A stretch of 39,942 bases of DNA from a virus. The notes beneath the pieces are model-generated. The model made no database searches and was not told where the DNA came from. It saw nothing but the letters and a program-made list of their open reading frames with translations. Within the stretch, counting starts at the first letter, position 1, and every line of letters begins with the position of its first letter. This document shows positions 1 through 39,891 of this stretch, piece by piece. The stretch covers positions 1-39,942 of the IMG/VR virus record IMGVR_UViG_3300037185_000081. One strand, given 5' to 3'. Made by a program: the position numbers and the translations under genes.

Positions 1-126
1 TTCTCTTGTCAGAGCGGGGCCGAAACATTATAATTTCTCCCGTTGCCCCACAAAGACGCTTTCCCTGACCCGATGGAATATCGAGCCTCAAGGGATCGGC
101 CATCAGCGGCAGCGGCGCGCCCCGCT
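1..126. repeat. Left copy of imperfect direct repeat (candidate att region) inside the recombinase 3' end
   Basis: Bases 1-126 align with 39699-39825 in the same orientation, with one single-base gap. The first 16 bases are identical, a 15-base block (22-36) is identical, and GCCCCGCT near the end is shared. Overall identity is roughly three quarters by eye. Here the repeat is the coding sequence for the last residues of the recombinase. Repeats at both ends of a prophage next to the integrase suggest attL/attR, but the match is longer and less exact than the short core of a normal serine-integrase site. Confidence 0.6.
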
Positions 127-1573
127 GGTTGCCGTTACGCACCTCGCAGGGAAGCCGATAAACAATTTCAATGCGATCGTCATAGACGGTCGCTTTTTCT
201 ATTAGCGCCGAGAAGAAGCCGGCGCGGTCATCGACCTCGTTCCATTTCTCCAGGTAATACTTGAAGGCGGCTCCGACCAGGGCGGCGGTGACCTTTGGAA
301 GCTTCGACACCCCATAGCGCCCCGCCTCGGCCTTCGACAGGCCGAGCTCGATCTCAAGCTTCTTGGACTTTTCGGAATACAGATCCAGCGGGACCGCGCC
401 TTTAAGGTACGCATCAAGGAGAAGGGCCCTCTCGCGCTCTATCTTCTTCAGACGGTCGGCCGCCATTCGGGCCTCGCCTCCGGAGGATCGCTCTTTTATC
501 TTCGCGTTGATCGCATCGGCGACGACCGAAGCCGTCTCGATGCGAGAAAGGGCGCGGCAGGCCGCCTCGAAGATGGCCCTCTCGACGGTTTCCTTCCGGA
601 GCATCGGACAATGGGGGCATTTCCCATTGGTCGATCGGATGCAGCGATAGTAGGAGACGCGCTTCTTTCCACGGCTCATGTGCGAATAACCCGTCATGTG
701 GCCTCCGCAGGTTCCGCAGAAAAGGATACCGGTCAAAGGATAGTCGGCAATTTTGTGGCGCGGCTGGGCGACCCGGTCATGATCGTGGATCCTTTGATTG
801 GCCAAAGCCCAAAGCTCCTTCGCGACCAAGGCGGGGGCGACGTCGGGGATGACGATGGGGTCGCCTTTCCCGTAGGAGAAGGTGTTGGTTCCGTAATAAA
901 GGGTGTTGCGGATGATCTTCTCGATCTCCTGATGGGAGATAAGACCGCCACGACGGCCGCGGATCCCGCGACCCCTCAGATCCCGAACGACGGAGGCAAG
1001 CTGCTCCCCGGACGCGATCCGCCTGAAGACCTCGATCGGGATCTCCTTGAGAGCGTCATCGATTTGATAGCGGCCCTCGTCGGTCCTTTTGTATCCGATC
1101 GGGATGCTGCCGCAGATGAGGCCTTTCCGGACACGTTCGTAGAGACCCTTCTTCGTCTCGCGGGAGAGGTTCTTCGAATAGTATTCCGCCATGGCCTCGA
1201 TCATCCCCTCAAGCATGATGGACTCGGGCTTCGTCTCATCGAAGTCCTCGGTCACCGAGAGGAGCCGCACATGGGCGTCGGAGAGAAGCCTCCGATAAAC
1301 GGCGAAATCGTATCGGTTCCTCGAGAACCGGTCCAGCTTGTGCACCACCGCGAAATCGAACTTCCCGGCGCGGGCGTCGATCATCATCTCCTGGAACGAA
1401 TCGCGGCTGTCCTTGGTCCCGGTCTTCGCCTCATCGACGTAAAAGCGGAGGAAGTCGTAGCCCTTCGCCTTGCAATACACCCGGATCGCGTCCTCCTGGG
1501 CCTCGATGGAATACCCGCCGCGCTGCTGCTCGGAGCTGAAACGGCAATAACCGACCGCTCTCGTCAAAGGCAT
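1..1573 (-). CDS. int: Large serine recombinase (phage integrase), 3' end outside the window
   Basis: This protein would catalyse integration and excision of the phage by serine-mediated double-strand exchange. About 524 codons are visible and no stop occurs before the left edge, so a few C-terminal residues are missing. The N-terminus has the resolvase signature GYCRFSSEQQ with the likely nucleophile Ser13, then DRFSRNR and an EYYSKNLSRE segment, typical of the catalytic domain and its long helix. A recombinase domain follows, then a zinc ribbon (FCGTCGGHM with a later CPHCP pair) and a probable coiled coil rich in K, E and R. The start at 1573 has GGAGG seven bases upstream. It is the last gene of the leftward lysogeny operon, downstream of a promoter-like element with TGTTAC boxes. 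Its C-terminal coding sequence is repeated imperfectly at the right edge of the window. Family assignment is firm; the target site is inference. Confidence 0.93.
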   Translation of the reverse strand, partial: MPLTRAVGYCRFSSEQQRGGYSIEAQEDAIRVYCKAKGYDFLRFYVDEAKTGTKDSRDSFQEMMIDARAGKFDFAVVHKLDRFSRNRYDFAVYRRLLSDAHVRLLSVTEDFDETKPESIMLEGMIEAMAEYYSKNLSRETKKGLYERVRKGLICGSIPIGYKRTDEGRYQIDDALKEIPIEVFRRIASGEQLASVVRDLRGRGIRGRRGGLISHQEIEKIIRNTLYYGTNTFSYGKGDPIVIPDVAPALVAKELWALANQRIHDHDRVAQPRHKIADYPLTGILFCGTCGGHMTGYSHMSRGKKRVSYYRCIRSTNGKCPHCPMLRKETVERAIFEAACRALSRIETASVVADAINAKIKERSSGGEARMAADRLKKIERERALLLDAYLKGAVPLDLYSEKSKKLEIELGLSKAEAGRYGVSKLPKVTAALVGAAFKYYLEKWNEVDDRAGFFSALIEKATVYDDRIEIVYRLPCEVRNGNQRGAPLPLMADPLRLDIPSGQGKRLCGATGEIIMFRPRSDKR

Positions 1574-1680
1574 AAATGAGCCTCCTTCGCTCGCGCGTAG
1601 GCGCGCACACGTCCCAGGAACGCCCCAGAAAGCCCGCGTACGCACATGGATTCCGTCAATGTCTCGCGCGTGTGATTACC

Positions 1681-1776
1681 TGTTACACTGTTACAGAGTT
1701 TGGAAATAAACAGACAGGTGGTGGATAATATGCGCGTAACAGCCGATGTAACAGAAAAGGTAACAAACCGTAACAG
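1681..1776. promoter_or_regulatory. TGTTAC box cluster upstream of the recombinase
   Basis: The 220-bp gap between repressor and recombinase holds six copies of TGTTAC or its complement: direct copies at 1681 and 1689, and complements (GTAACA) at 1736, 1748, 1760 and 1770. The last four are spaced 12, 12 and 10 bases, about one helical turn. On the minus strand bases 1754-1732 are identical over 23 bases to 16838-16860. Such phased arrays are typical of cooperative repressor or activator binding, or of iterons. I read them as binding sites for a phage regulator, probably the neighbouring repressor; that is inference. Confidence 0.7.
1725..1752 (-). promoter_or_regulatory. Candidate leftward promoter for the recombinase
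   Basis: On the minus strand GTTACA (1752-1747, four of six matches to the -35 consensus) is followed after 16 bases by TATTAT (1730-1725, five of six matches to the -10 consensus). A TGTTAC box lies in the spacer and others lie just upstream. The same arrangement, GTTACA, 16 bases, TATATA, recurs at 16840-16867. The match is suggestive but the -35 element is weak, so an activator may be needed. Confidence 0.45.
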
Positions 1777-1793
1777 CGGAAAGACTGTTTCGC

Positions 1794-2210
1794 TCATTGT
1801 TTCACCTCTTGGTGGGCCTCGATGAGGGCGTCCGACATCACTTTCAGCGAAGCGACGTCGGCCTCGGTCAGAGCCCCATCCGTTGCGTCTTTGCAGATCA
1901 TGAACAGATCGAAATCGCGCTGAGGCAGTTTTCCGGCGGATCGCATCTCAACGATCTCGTCGAAATTAGTTTCGACCAGGGAGCGAAGAGTCTCGCCGAA
2001 GGAGCCTTCGTACTTGATGGCGTCTGATCCCAGCAAAGCGTAAGGGGAGACGTGGAGGGCTCTCGAAAGTTTTTCCGCCTGCTTCAGCGTGAGCTTCTGA
2101 TGCCCGGACTCGATCTGGGCGATGTAGCCCCTTGAGCAACCCGATGCTTTTGCCAGCTCGTACTGGCTCTCCCCGGAATTTTCGCGGAACTTCTTAAGAT
2201 TATTGCCCAT
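1794..2210 (-). CDS. Xre/Cro-CI family phage repressor
   Basis: A 138-residue protein with an HTH_3 domain at about residues 5-60 (motif around YELAKASGCSRGYIAQIESG) and an acidic helical C-terminal half. There is no LexA-type peptidase domain, so inactivation would not be by RecA-stimulated self-cleavage. Its position, leftward, divergent from the early operon and in line with the recombinase, is that of a CI-type lysogeny repressor. The start at 2210 is preceded by AAGGAGG. It reads from a promoter whose spacer holds a GTTACA box, so it probably regulates itself. DNA binding is certain from the family; the role as master repressor is inferred from position. Confidence 0.85.
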   Translation of the reverse strand: MGNNLKKFRENSGESQYELAKASGCSRGYIAQIESGHQKLTLKQAEKLSRALHVSPYALLGSDAIKYEGSFGETLRSLVETNFDEIVEMRSAGKLPQRDFDLFMICKDATDGALTEADVASLKVMSDALIEAHQEVKQ

Positions 2211-11789: not shown

Positions 11790-14246
11790 ATGAACGAAGA
11801 GAAGCAACTGAGGATCGCCATCGCCCCGACCAGGATGGCCAAATCATGGACGAACCGAGCCATAACCTGGGGCGAGCTCATGAAGAGACTCGCCATAAGC
11901 AAAGACACCGGCGAGACCATGGCCGAGTATCTGGCGATGCCGAAGGAACAGCAGGATCAGATCAAGGACATCGGCGGCTTCGTCGGGGGGACCCTGAAAG
12001 ACGGCCTCCGGAGAAATGGATGCGTCGAGAGCCGATCGCTCGTGACGCTCGATCTCGACGACTGCCGCGCCGACGTGCTGGAGGCCCTTTCGGTCGGGCT
12101 CGAATGGGAGTGCTTCGCCTATTCGACCCACAAGAGCACCGAAACCCATCCGCGGGTCCGGCTCGTCATCCCCCTGAAGAGGGAGGTCACGCCCGACGAA
12201 TACGAGCCTTTGGCGAGACGGATAGCGGCGGATTCGCTGGCCGGCATGGAATGCTTCGATCCGACGACCTACGAGGCCGCGCGGCTCATGTACTGGCCGA
12301 GCAAGACCCACGATGAGCCGGCGGTGGCCAAAGAATTCGAGGGCGGGGTATGCGATCCGGATGCCGTGCTCGCGGAGTATGCCGACTGGAAAGACGCCAA
12401 GGAGTGGCCCACGAGCTCGAAGGAGCTCAAGCGGCGCCCGGGCGCTTTGGGCGCGAAGCTCTCCGACCCGGCGGGAAAGCCCGGGACGATCGGCGCCTTC
12501 TGCGAAGCCCACCCGATCAGCGACGCCATAGAGCGATTCATCCCCGAGATCTACGAGAAGGTCGAGGGCGGGCGCTACACCTTCGCCGGCGGGACGACCA
12601 CCGGAGGGGCCATCGTCTACGGCGACAAATTCCTTTATTCGAACCACGCCACCGATCCGGCGAGGGGCCAAAGCCTAAACAGCTTCGATCTCGTGCGGAT
12701 CCATCTCTTCGGGACGCTCGACAAGGACGCCAAAGAGGACACGCCGACTTCGAAGCTGCCGTCTTTCGGGAAGATGGAGGGCTTCGCCCGAAACGACCCG
12801 GAGACGAAGGAGGTACTTTCGAGGAAGCTGCGCGAGGCGCATCCGGAGGCCGAAGCCGATTTCGCCGAGATCCTGGACAAGGGGGCCGAGGAGCCGGACG
12901 CCTGGATGAAAAAGCTAACCTACGCCAAGGGCTCCCGCTTCGTCGAGGACAGCTACGACAACGCCGCGATCATCCTCGAAAACGACCCGAACCTCAAAGG
13001 GCTCGTGGGCGAGAACGTCTTCCGCGGATTCCCCGAGATCCTGAAGAGGACGCCTTGGAAGAGGGCGACCTCGACGCCGACCTGGAGCGACGCAGACGAT
13101 TCGCAGCTGAGAATCTACCTGGCCCACGTCTACGGCCTCCGAAACAGGCAGTTTATCCTGGACGCCCTGACGGCGGCCATGGAGCATAACGCCTTCGATC
13201 CGGTCAAAAAATACATCGAGGCAGTCAAATGGGATGGGCAGAGGCGCGCCGAAGGGCTTCTGGTCAGATACCTCGGGGCCGAGGACTGCGACTACGTGAA
13301 AACGATAACCAGGAAGATGCTGACCGCGGCGGTGGCCCGGGTCTACGAGCCTGGGAAGAAGTTCGATTACATGGTGACACTCGTGGGCCCTCAGGGCCTG
13401 GGGAAGTCGCTTCTCATACAGAAGATAGGGAACGGATGGACGAGCGACACGCTCCCGGACCTGCGATCGAAGCAGGCCTACGAGTCGCTCGACGGCGTAT
13501 GGCTCATGGAGATGGCCGAATTGGTGGCCCTCAAAAAGGCCGACCGGGAGACGATCAAGAACTTCGTGAGCAAGACCGAGGACACCTACCGGAAGGCCTA
13601 TGCCAGGAACGTCTCCGTCAACCGCCGCCGATGCATCTTCATCGGGACGACGAACGATGAGAGCTTCCTGAACGACGCGACAGGCGCCAGACGGTTCCTC
13701 GTCATCGACTGCGCCCGGTCCAAGGTCGAGACGCCGGTATGGAAGGGGCTGACCCCCGACGAGGTCCACCAGATCTGGGCCGAGGCCAAGACCTACTACG
13801 ACCAGGGCGAGAAGATCATGGACATGCCGGACCACGTCGCCGAGACGGCTCTCGCCGAGCAGAATTCGCACACCGACGACGATCCGCAAAGCGGCATGGT
13901 CCTCGTCTACTTGGAGACGAAGCTGCCCTCGACCTGGGACTCCTACACCATCGATCAGAGGGTGCAATGGTACAAGGCGACCGATCAATACCGCGAAGAG
14001 ATCGGGAGGACCCTCGACTCCGACGGCAACCCAATCGGGCTTCTTGAGCGGGAAAGCGTCTGCGCCCAGGAGATCTGGAGCGAGTGCTTTCAGAAGCGGC
14101 TCTCCGACATGAGCTTCATCGACTCGAAGAAAATCTGTGAATCGCTTCGGAAGCTCCCCGGATGGAAGCAGGAGGAGCGCACGAGGCGGGTGGGGCCCTA
14201 CGGCCCTCAGCGCTGCTTCGTCAAACACAAAGGGGAGAAACCATGA
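11790..14246 (+). CDS. VirE/VapE-type primase-helicase
   Basis: An 818-residue fusion. The N-terminal 250 residues look like an archaeo-eukaryotic primase-polymerase: Asp88-x-Asp90 in TLDLDD, then FAYSTHKSTETHPRVRLVIPL and EAARLMYWPS. The C-terminal VirE domain has a Walker A GPQGLGKS (533-540, Lys539), an acidic MEMAEL motif and a sensor-like IGTTND, followed by ATGARRFLVI. It should prime and unwind phage DNA for the family A polymerase upstream. Length fits the family. The next gene overlaps its stop (ATGA). Confidence 0.92.
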   Translation: MNEEKQLRIAIAPTRMAKSWTNRAITWGELMKRLAISKDTGETMAEYLAMPKEQQDQIKDIGGFVGGTLKDGLRRNGCVESRSLVTLDLDDCRADVLEALSVGLEWECFAYSTHKSTETHPRVRLVIPLKREVTPDEYEPLARRIAADSLAGMECFDPTTYEAARLMYWPSKTHDEPAVAKEFEGGVCDPDAVLAEYADWKDAKEWPTSSKELKRRPGALGAKLSDPAGKPGTIGAFCEAHPISDAIERFIPEIYEKVEGGRYTFAGGTTTGGAIVYGDKFLYSNHATDPARGQSLNSFDLVRIHLFGTLDKDAKEDTPTSKLPSFGKMEGFARNDPETKEVLSRKLREAHPEAEADFAEILDKGAEEPDAWMKKLTYAKGSRFVEDSYDNAAIILENDPNLKGLVGENVFRGFPEILKRTPWKRATSTPTWSDADDSQLRIYLAHVYGLRNRQFILDALTAAMEHNAFDPVKKYIEAVKWDGQRRAEGLLVRYLGAEDCDYVKTITRKMLTAAVARVYEPGKKFDYMVTLVGPQGLGKSLLIQKIGNGWTSDTLPDLRSKQAYESLDGVWLMEMAELVALKKADRETIKNFVSKTEDTYRKAYARNVSVNRRRCIFIGTTNDESFLNDATGARRFLVIDCARSKVETPVWKGLTPDEVHQIWAEAKTYYDQGEKIMDMPDHVAETALAEQNSHTDDDPQSGMVLVYLETKLPSTWDSYTIDQRVQWYKATDQYREEIGRTLDSDGNPIGLLERESVCAQEIWSECFQKRLSDMSFIDSKKICESLRKLPGWKQEERTRRVGPYGPQRCFVKHKGEKP

Positions 14247-16800: not shown

Positions 16801-16913
16801 GTAACAAAGGAAGGGCTGTTACGGGAGCTGTTACGCTCTGTTACATCGGCTGTTACGCGCGTATATACCCCATAATATCTAGCTATCAGAGGAGATTCTC
16901 AATGAATGTAACA
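16801..16913. promoter_or_regulatory. TGTTAC box cluster, second control region
   Basis: Four direct copies of TGTTAC start at 16817, 16829, 16839 and 16851 (spacing 12, 10 and 12), flanked by inverted copies at 16801 and 16908. Bases 16838-16860 are identical to the minus strand of 1732-1754. The spacing close to one helical turn puts all boxes on the same face of the DNA. An AT-rich stretch (16862-16885) follows. This is either a multi-site operator for a mid-operon promoter or an iteron-type replication origin. I favour the operator because the same arrangement precedes the recombinase. Confidence 0.72.
16840..16867 (+). promoter_or_regulatory. Candidate promoter of the VRR-NUC/helicase operon
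   Basis: GTTACA (16840-16845), 16 bases, then TATATA (16862-16867) repeats the layout found upstream of the recombinase. A TGTTAC box lies in the spacer. A second possible -10 (TAATAT, 16873-16878) lies just downstream. The element would drive the nuclease, helicase and late-regulator genes independently of the early promoter 14.5 kb upstream. Confidence 0.5.
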
Positions 16914-17030
16914 CGATATCACACACGCGCGAGGACATTTCCGCTGGCAAGGGCGCAAAAGGCCCATGCGGGCAATACCCGCTTCGCGTGCGTGCGCATG
17001 CGAGAAGGAGGCCGATCCCATGTCGGATAA
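16902..17030 (+). CDS. Possible 42-residue leader peptide
   Basis: An open frame from ATG 16902 with AGAGGAG six bases upstream, running to a TAA that overlaps the start of the VRR-NUC gene in another frame. The product is basic (MNVTRYHTRARTFPLARAQK...). Its first codons contain the last GTAACA box. Good ribosome site and the overlap suggest translation, perhaps as a coupling leader. There is no homology I recognise. Confidence 0.4.
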   Translation: MNVTRYHTRARTFPLARAQKAHAGNTRFACVRMREGGRSHVG

Positions 17031-17319
17031 GGAGATCCTGGAGAAGACGGTCGAGGCCCACCTCGTCGACCGATGCAGGGAGCTCGGGTGGAAATGCCTC
17101 AAGATCCAGGGGGCGAAAGGGTATCCCGACAGGCTCATCCTGGCGGACGGCGGAAGATCCCTCTTCGTCGAGCTGAAGCGCCCGGTGGGCGGAAGGCTCT
17201 CGCCGATGCAGCGTTACGTGTTCGGGGAGCTCCGCAGGATAGGCCATGACGTCGTCGTGGCCAAGACGAAGAACGACGTCGACGCGGCGATCGATTCGCT
17301 GAAAGGAGGGCTGCAATGA
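17020..17319 (+). CDS. VRR-NUC domain nuclease
   Basis: A 99-residue single-domain nuclease starting at ATG 17020 behind AAGGAGG. The core motifs are Gly-Tyr-Pro-Asp-Arg (GAKGYPDRLIL, acidic residue), LFVELKRPVGG (E-x-K) and a Q in SPMQRYVF, all characteristic of the VRR-NUC branch of PD-(D/E)XK enzymes. In phages it almost always precedes an SNF2-type helicase, as here with a four-base overlap. The pair may process branched or stalled replication structures. Family certain; substrate inferred. Confidence 0.93.
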   Translation: MSDKEILEKTVEAHLVDRCRELGWKCLKIQGAKGYPDRLILADGGRSLFVELKRPVGGRLSPMQRYVFGELRRIGHDVVVAKTKNDVDAAIDSLKGGLQ

Positions 17320-18779
17320 GATTCGGTCCGCACGAATATCAGAAAGCCATCATCGGGAGGATCCTCGCGCAGAAGCGCCTCGCCCTTCTCCTCGACATGG
17401 GGACGGGGAAAACCGCCTGCGCCCTTTTCGCGATGCGGTGGCTCATGAGCGCGAGGCTCGATTTCGAAAAGGCCCTGATCATCGCACCGAAGCGGGTCGC
17501 CGAGAGCACGTGGCCGGACGAGGCCGCAAAATGGGACGAGTTCAGAGGGCTTCGGATGTCGCTCGTCCTCGGATCGGAAGCGGAGCGGGAGGCGGCGCTG
17601 GAAAGGGACGCGGACGTCTACGTGATCAACCGCGAAAACGCGGTTTGGCTCATCGAGCATTACGAAGCCAAGGGGAGGAAATGGCCCTTCGGCATGCTAG
17701 TGATAGATGAGAGCTCGAGCTTCAAGAACCGCGCGGCGAAGAGGTGGAAGGCCGCCAAGGCCATGGCCATCGCGACGCCTCGCGTCCTGCTTCTGACGGG
17801 GACTCCGGCGCCGAACGGCCTCGAGGATCTTTGGGCGCAGATCTATCTCCTCGACCAGGGCGAAAGGCTCGGAAGGACGATAACGGCGTTCCGGCAGAGA
17901 TGGTTCCATCCCGGGGCGCACAACGGCATGGTGGTCTTCGAGTATCTTCCGAACAAAGGGGCCGAGGAGCAGATCTACAAAAGCATCTCCGACGTCGCGA
18001 TCTCGATAAGGGCCAAGGACGTCCTGAAGATGCCGGAGAGGATCGACGAGAGAATCGAGCTGGCGCTGCCAAGCGGGATCAAAGAGATCTCGAGGCGCCT
18101 CGAGAGGGACTATCTCTGCGAAGTGGGGAAGGAGACGCTGACGGCGGCGAGCGCCGGAGTGGTCGTCAACAAGCTTCTCCAGGTCGCCGACGGGGCCGTC
18201 TACGTCGAAAGGCCGATCCATACGACGGCGCTTGTGAGCAGGGACCACGACTGCGAGAAAATCCGGGTCGACACGGGCGGGAGCGATTCGGAGCCTTGGA
18301 TGGAGATCCACAGGCTCAAACTGGAAGCCCTCGAAAGGATCGTCGAAGACAACGAGGGGCAGAGCATCCTCGTCTATTACAACTACCGATTCGATCGGGA
18401 GCGGATCCTCAAGGCCCTGAGCGATTACGGGCCAAGGACGCTCGATGGGCCGAAGGACGTCACCGATTGGAACCTCGGGAAGATCAAGATCCTGCTCGCC
18501 AATCCGGCGTCGAGCGCCTTTGGGATCAATCTGCAAGGCGGAGGGCATATCATCGTCTGGATAACCCCGATATGGAACCTGGAGCTGACGCAGCAGGCGA
18601 ACGCCAGGCTTTTGCGGCAAGGTCAGGAGCATCCGGTGGTCATCTATCACATCGTGGCCAAAGGCACCGAGGACGAGGAGGTGGAGAAGGCCCTCGAGCG
18701 GAAAGCCGTGACCCAGGACGACCTCATCAAAGCCGTGAGGGCGAGAATAAGGGAAGCCGGGGGAAACGGAAATGCCTGA
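17316..18779 (+). CDS. SNF2-like DEAD/DEAH helicase
   Basis: A 487-residue superfamily 2 ATPase. Walker A is DMGTGKT (27-33) and the DEAH-type box is IDESS with Asp131-Glu132. Motif III appears as LTGTPAPNG, and the C-terminal RecA domain ends with ILLANPASSAFGINLQGG and QQANARLLRQGQ (motifs V and VI). Length and order match phage SNF2-like helicases paired with VRR-NUC. It probably remodels or translocates on phage DNA and recruits the nuclease. It overlaps the next gene by eight bases. Confidence 0.94.
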   Translation: MRFGPHEYQKAIIGRILAQKRLALLLDMGTGKTACALFAMRWLMSARLDFEKALIIAPKRVAESTWPDEAAKWDEFRGLRMSLVLGSEAEREAALERDADVYVINRENAVWLIEHYEAKGRKWPFGMLVIDESSSFKNRAAKRWKAAKAMAIATPRVLLLTGTPAPNGLEDLWAQIYLLDQGERLGRTITAFRQRWFHPGAHNGMVVFEYLPNKGAEEQIYKSISDVAISIRAKDVLKMPERIDERIELALPSGIKEISRRLERDYLCEVGKETLTAASAGVVVNKLLQVADGAVYVERPIHTTALVSRDHDCEKIRVDTGGSDSEPWMEIHRLKLEALERIVEDNEGQSILVYYNYRFDRERILKALSDYGPRTLDGPKDVTDWNLGKIKILLANPASSAFGINLQGGGHIIVWITPIWNLELTQQANARLLRQGQEHPVVIYHIVAKGTEDEEVEKALERKAVTQDDLIKAVRARIREAGGNGNA

Positions 18780-19044
18780 GGACAGGTTCGGCGTCCTCCG
18801 CGGCTTCCTGACAGTCGATTCCAGAATCGAGGCCAAGCAGAAAGAGCTGCAGGCCCTCACCGAGGAGAAAGCGAGGGACGAGGAAACCATAAGAAAACTC
18901 ATGTCGAGCGACGACAGGAGATGGAAGGTCGTCTACTTCCATTTCGTCAAGGGGATGTCGCTAAGACGGTGCGCGTCTAAATTCCATTACAGCAAGCAAG
19001 GAGTCTGCAAGATAATAAGGACCTATCGAAACAAACTTAAGTAA
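18772..19044 (+). CDS. DUF1492/ArpU-like late transcription regulator
   Basis: A 90-residue protein with an N-terminal coiled coil (SRIEAKQKELQALTEEKARD) and a C-terminal sigma-factor region 4-like HTH (VVYFHFVKGMSLRRCASKFHYSKQGVCKIIRTY). Proteins of this type end the early operon of many Bacillota phages and activate the packaging and structural genes. Just downstream lie tandem repeats and a promoter-like element before the HNH and terminase genes, a natural target. Family is well supported; the target is inferred. Confidence 0.85.
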   Translation: MPEDRFGVLRGFLTVDSRIEAKQKELQALTEEKARDEETIRKLMSSDDRRWKVVYFHFVKGMSLRRCASKFHYSKQGVCKIIRTYRNKLK

Positions 19045-35767: not shown

Positions 35768-35775
35768 TGCGGCGA

Positions 35776-35935
35776 GAGGACCCTTTATCGGAGCTCCAAT
35801 CGGTCCCGTCTGGGGCTGATAAGGCGCGGGCCTATAAGGCCTATAGCCCGGCCCCTTCTGGAAGCGTGGCGGTTTAGCCGGCTCATCCGAGGGATTGATG
35901 TGGACCTCCGATAAAGGGCCCTCACGTTAGACGTG
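35776..35935 (+). ncRNA. Highly structured non-coding segment, candidate phage RNA
   Basis: A 205-base gap between tail genes has no gene. Bases 35776-35793 pair with 35906-35923 over 18 positions with one mismatch (35780/35919). Inside, CAATC (35797-35801) can pair with GATTG (35893-35897), GGGGC (35812-35816) with GCCCC (35851-35855), CGGGC (35827-35831) with GCCCG (35846-35850), and TATA with TATA above that. GGCGGTTTAGCC (35869-35880) may form a third helix. A small CACGT-TAG-ACGTG hairpin closes the 3' side (35923-35935). Such a closed, branched fold suggests a functional RNA, processed from or leading the late transcript. I match it to no known class. Confidence 0.55.
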
Positions 35936-39698: not shown

Positions 39699-39825
39699 TT
39701 CTCTTGTCAGAGCGTGACTGAAACATTATAATTTGTCCCGTTGCCGAGAAAAGGCACCCTCCACGACCCGACGGAATATCGGGCCTCAACGGAGAGGTGC
39801 GTAAGCGGTAACTGAACGCCCCGCT
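39699..39825. repeat. Right copy of the imperfect direct repeat; degenerate recombinase 3' end
   Basis: This matches bases 1-126. Read on the minus strand it still encodes PLRPDIPSG, SATGQIIMF and SRSDKR, close to PLRLDIPSG, GATGEIIMF and PRSDKR of the recombinase at the left end. Many differences are silent or conservative, so this copy descends from a coding sequence of a related recombinase. It has no complete gene. It directly abuts and overlaps the 5' end of the tRNA, which suggests the right attachment region. Confidence 0.65.
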
Positions 39826-39891
39826 AGTTAAACGGTATAACGGGTCCATGGTAAGGACCAATTCGTAGTCCGACTCTGCGGCGGGGCACCA
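39818..39891 (+). tRNA. tRNA-Thr(GGT), with encoded CCA
   Basis: A full cloverleaf can be drawn. The acceptor stem is GCCCCGC (39818-39824) with GCGGGGC (39881-39887). The D stem is GTTA with TAAC. The anticodon stem is GGTCC with GGACC around ATGGTAA, anticodon GGT at 39850-39852 (reads ACC, Thr). The T stem is CGTAG with CTGCG around TCCGACT. Discriminator A is followed by CCA. The loop has C where T55 is nearly universal, and base 32 is A, so the tRNA may be degenerate or altered by recombination. Identity Thr is from the anticodon only. Confidence 0.8.

Follow-up and report, generated by a model that had tools for sequence, protein, structure and literature searches.

The phage DNA analysed here (the window, 39,942 nucleotides) carries two arrays of the word TGTTAC that lie 15 kb apart, array A before a serine recombinase gene and array B before a nuclease and a helicase gene, and the two arrays share an exact block in inverted orientation. 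This raises the question of which protein reads the arrays and what they serve. The first-pass annotation had proposed a single repressor-type regulon covering integration and a mid-early operon, with an iteron origin as the alternative. The sites and the genes around them are as follows:

2..1573, minus strand: large serine recombinase (Resolvase, Recombinase and Zn ribbon); the frame runs off the window start
1663..1674, minus strand: leader motif CACACGCGCGAG, downstream of array A; kept in the relative G031
1681..1775, minus strand: array A, with TGTTAC at 1736, 1748, 1760 and 1770 (minus) and at 1681 and 1689 (plus)
1725..1752, minus strand: promoter-like GTTACA-16-TATTAT, overlapping two boxes of array A; a consensus match only
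1732..1755, minus strand: 24-nt block, copy at array A, inverted relative to 16837-16860
1786..1791, plus strand: TGTTTC, a putative degenerate outer box of array A, read from the sequence
1794..2210, minus strand: HTH_3 repressor-like protein
11790..14246, plus strand: VapE-type primase-helicase (phrog_256), the proposed initiator
16801..16913, plus strand: array B, with TGTTAC at 16817, 16829, 16839 and 16851 (plus) and at 16801 and 16908 (minus)
16837..16860, plus strand: 24-nt block, copy at array B, inverted relative to 1732-1755
16922..16933, plus strand: leader motif CACACGCGCGAG, downstream of array B; kept in G031
17020..17319, plus strand: VRR-NUC nuclease; its ATG at 17020 is preceded by AAGGAGG
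17316..18779, plus strand: SNF2-type helicase

Comparison of the window with itself confirmed that 16838-16860 is the reverse complement of 1732-1754, as had been noted, and showed that the exact match is one nucleotide longer (24 nt, 1732-1755 and 16837-16860; 27/28 when extended). In 10 first-order simulations, the longest exact inverted repeats reached 14-16 nt. The window contains 13 copies of TGTTAC where 3.3 would be expected, and all but one of them lie inside the two arrays. Each array holds six boxes over a span of about 110 bp, compared with a simulated maximum of two per 120 bp (200 simulations), and an unbiased scan of the window for clustered 6-mers returned arrays A and B only. 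A chance origin of the block and arrays was rejected on the basis of the simulations and the TGTTAC counts. The likeness is not confined to the shared block: the alignment of A with B extends over about 200 bp and includes the downstream motif CACACGCGCGAG, which is absent from the window outside its two array-linked copies. The exact shared block was not found in any other viral contig searched.

Array A has the layout word-12-word-46-inverted word-8-inverted word, and its TGTTTC box stands at offset -16, the same as that of the outer box in array B and in array A of G031. Array B has the spacing of 12, a gap of 56 and a single opposed box, whereas the core layout described below has two opposed boxes and a gap of 42-49. 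Over 50 bp, the GC content falls to 0.32 at B and to 0.36 at A, a weaker AT richness than in most related phages, and neither array has the strongly AT-rich stretch found after the inner pair in most of them; the gap of site B nevertheless falls within the AT-richest 0.3% of 50-bp windows. The minimum of the GC skew, at 1665, falls together with array A; because it is near a change of coding strand, it was set aside.

Array A sits on the minus strand between the stop of the HTH_3 repressor-like gene and the start of the serine recombinase gene. Array B lies just 5' of the VRR-NUC and SNF2-type helicase genes and 2.5 kb past the end of the primase-helicase gene, and the genes upstream of it encode an exonuclease-family protein (phrog_69), a DNA polymerase and the VapE-type primase-helicase. 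The genes that the arrays had been said to serve are thus borne out for the recombinase at A and for the nuclease and helicase at B, but a "late regulator" could not be confirmed: for the 90-aa protein at 18772-19044, the sole match is a PHROG family of unknown function.

A scan based on alignment of the primase-helicase gave 79 further loci, with 57 non-redundant phages for the interval test; a query of genome contigs with the same protein gave no match. A clustered repeat word was present between the primase-helicase and VRR-NUC/SNF2 genes in 86% of the 57 phages, compared with 3.6% of random intervals matched in length. The words at this interval vary by phage and include TGTTAC, TGTAAA, GTATAC, GTCAAC, GTAGAC, GGAAAC, TGGACA and others. 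The interval cluster was the only word cluster in 18 of 20 nearly whole genomes, and extra smaller clusters besides it were seen in G033 and G036. The core w-12-w-(42-49)-w'-8/9-w' (w' being the inverted word) was found in the interval at 30 of the 79 loci, in one orientation throughout; outside the interval it was found at two loci, and in shuffled loci at none. Array A (12, 46, 8) is the only occurrence of this core layout in the window.

About half of the TGTTAC matches in the collection look like 12-bp in-frame tandem repeats in long reading frames, and these were set apart. G004 has two TGTTAC arrays about 13 kb apart (L246, 2101-2280; L247, 1609-1856), one beside a VRR-NUC-like gene and the second not at an integrase. 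TGTTAC arrays also occur in phages that have other replication genes, such as those for a Toprim primase or a DnaB-type helicase (L005, L032, L042, L068, L077, L116 and others). In L134 (400-760), GGTCGTAGA-type repeats in both orientations surround AT-rich sequence where a primase-like gene has its 3' end.

The candidate reader of the word is the primase-helicase. The window protein matches PF05272 at E 1.4e-72, so that a VapE-type helicase domain is present, and structure prediction places a C-terminal winged helix at about residues 753-814, with a pLDDT of about 86-93 over most of the domain. By both sequence and fold, the best solved match of the predicted C-terminal part is PriRep1 with dsDNA (7pds). 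The primase-helicases of L172 and L193, two near-identical phages, are 98% identical up to residue 690, and the words of these phages are TGTTAC and TGTTGY, respectively; 14 of the 25 substitutions fall within the last 128 residues, mostly in the last 30 or so (p = 3e-6), and 13 of these 14 lie beyond window residue 788. Among the aligned C-termini, a KGG(Y/F) wing was accompanied by GTNNAC-type words in 9/9 phages, compared with 10/52 of the others (p = 5e-6). Over all phages, the association between wing and word is significant but weak (partial r 0.18; partial Mantel test, 58 non-redundant proteins), and the wing ranks highest among the segments tested, with segment 416-438 nearly as high. 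In these comparisons of other phages, a change of word thus goes along with change in the C-terminal wing of the primase-helicase.

Known systems offer partial parallels. In Cch2, a related system, the C-terminal domain binds the iterons, and SaPI origins have short iterons near the initiator gene (PMC7581432). The window resembles the SaPI5-type Rep system (PriRep1, VapE family) in its VapE-type initiator with a predicted C-terminal DNA-binding domain, in the fold likeness to 7pds and in its short iteron-like repeats; it differs in that its array lies 2.5 kb downstream, before VRR-NUC, and in that a second array lies at the recombinase. A further parallel is the Streptococcus phage Sfi21, in whose record a region immediately 3' of the primase gene is annotated as "origin of replication, 302 bp non-coding region, phage inhibitory sequence". 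The word GTTAC occurs 11 times in this origin, next to an AT-rich stretch; paired copies are separated by 8 bp and the gaps measure 44-46 bp. Both the words and the pair spacing and gaps are comparable to those of the window. However, the adjacent Sfi21 primase is of the Pox_D5 type and cannot be aligned to the window initiator; because it is a different, D5-type protein, Sfi21 backs the layout and not the initiator of the window. The cloned Sfi21 origin reportedly inhibits the phage, as Foley and colleagues are said to have described in 1998 and as the record annotation also states. We know of no Sfi21 origin copy at an integrase.

Based on the conserved position, the layout, the likeness to Sfi21 and the word changes that track the wing, the phage replication initiator most likely binds the arrays as iterons, and array B is the probable origin. 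The iteron-origin alternative of the first-pass annotation is thus the better-supported reading for site B.

The part that is unusual is the second copy of the array before an integration gene, kept in the closest relative. This relative, G031 (loci L166, L245, L249 and L250), was the only close one found; its primase-helicase is 76% identical to that of the window and its recombinase about 46% identical. G031 carries GTTAC boxes at both sites at near-identical offsets, with the leader motif present at both, and the distance from the first direct box to the opposed box or boxes is 81-91 bp in all four arrays of the two phages. Since both sites, the layout and the shared leader are kept in G031, A and B appear to be one functional unit, as had been proposed. 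The spacer sequence differs in the G031 arrays and the exact 24-nt identity is peculiar to the window, for which copying between A and B within the window lineage would be one explanation.

Such copying bears on the possibility that B is an origin and A a recent or non-functional duplicate of it. The 24 exact bases common to both arrays suggest recent copying, and most of the related phages examined have one array. However, A occupies the same place in G031, with offsets nearly unchanged next to a recombinase that has diverged to about 46% identity, and the full core layout is found in A and not in B; we regard this reading as improbable.

More distant relatives of the recombinase give a different picture. 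A query with the single protein found no viral relative; once G031 was added to the query, eight loci including G031 were recovered, and none of the seven more distant ones (0/7) has an array upstream of the recombinase. It had been suggested that related phages be searched for the block at both sites, and that the same genes without it would speak against a common function. Both arrays were found in G031, but because the distant recombinase relatives lack an upstream array, the latter outcome was observed in part for site A.

Array A could instead serve recombination or its direction as an accessory site, for example by binding an excision factor, given its place directly 5' of the recombinase gene. 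The same boxes at B, beside replication genes, argue against this, as does the att-like direct repeat of the window, which lies 1.6 kb from A, and we consider such a role very improbable. This repeat (1-95 and 39699-39793, 82% identical) comprises the 3' part of the recombinase frame as its first copy, and its second copy ends 25 bp before a tRNA-Thr gene (39818-39891); the copies are probably the prophage ends or a remnant of an earlier integration. Elsewhere in the window, an inverted repeat of 26 nt, 88% complementary, is found at 35773-35798 and 35901-35926, 102 nt apart.

The main competing explanation makes A and B operators at which one transcription regulator, either the HTH repressor or another phage protein, controls the recombinase and VRR-NUC/SNF2 genes, with no role in starting replication. 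Both arrays lie directly 5' of genes, overlap or adjoin promoter-like sequence and share a common leader, and both are kept in G031. The promoter-like and leader features thus favour transcription control and count against an origin function. Among viral contigs, CACACGCGCGAG was found beside boxes in G031 only; its matches in genome contigs are apparently due to chance in GC-rich genomes. A leader peptide at 16902 was considered and rejected, as differences of 6/12/6 by codon position give no sign of coding selection. The leader hairpins were weakly better or no better than those of shuffled sequences in most cases, and an Rfam search gave no match.

Against operators stands the finding that distant phages with the same genes carry the array at the replication-gene interval only, with a word that varies by phage and follows the primase-helicase wing, whereas recombinase relatives outside the clade have none. 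In addition, no TGTTAC box or array was found at the repressor's own promoter (2211-2349), and the sequences there are different: two imperfect dyads containing GTTACAAAAA lie at about 2256-2320, next to a TTGACG-17-TATCAT sequence that resembles a promoter and lies upstream of the repressor gene. It is possible that these dyads are repressor operators separate from the arrays. The single regulon proposed in the first-pass annotation therefore has little support, and we consider operators for one transcription regulator unlikely, although the protein that binds the arrays may control transcription as well.

Overall, we consider it fairly probable that the winged helix of the VapE-type initiator binds A and B as iteron modules, with B as the likely origin and A as a second origin-like site and/or a switch of the recombinase promoter. 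Binding in the window phage, origin activity and the role of array A are what we infer from these comparisons. At B, several initiator molecules would occupy the direct boxes together with the opposed box or boxes, open the AT-richer DNA between them and then load as a helicase. Array A, with the most canonical layout, would be a second origin-like site before the serine recombinase, and/or the initiator bound there would switch the recombinase promoter and tie integration to replication. A more specific version, which we put forward only tentatively, is that the initiator at A turns this promoter on or off as it accumulates, so that one protein, reading one word at two sites, would settle the choice between replication and integration. 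Origins are usually single, and the keeping of two arrays is a point against an initiator-bound pair. The missing strongly AT-rich stretch at both arrays, the departures of B from the core layout and its distance of 2.5 kb from the initiator gene, in place of a position immediately behind that gene, also count against this reading, as do the weak association of wing and word over all phages and the single close relative. The satellite phage P4 (ori and crr) and phage SPP1 (oriL and oriR) each have a pair of widely separated sites that carry the same boxes for their initiator. These phages differ from the window in that they use other initiators and boxes, and in neither, as far as we know, does the second site lie at an integrase promoter.

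In a non-exhaustive search of the open-access literature, we did not find an earlier description of the joint drift of word and wing or of a second array at a recombinase. The broader pattern is an origin-like array with a fixed place and layout in many phages that share one replication module, in which the word appears to drift with the initiator wing. If binding is confirmed, this would make it possible to locate origins and to predict the specificity of initiators in phages never grown in culture. With its second array at the recombinase, the window phage would allow a test of whether a replication initiator can directly govern the integration decision.
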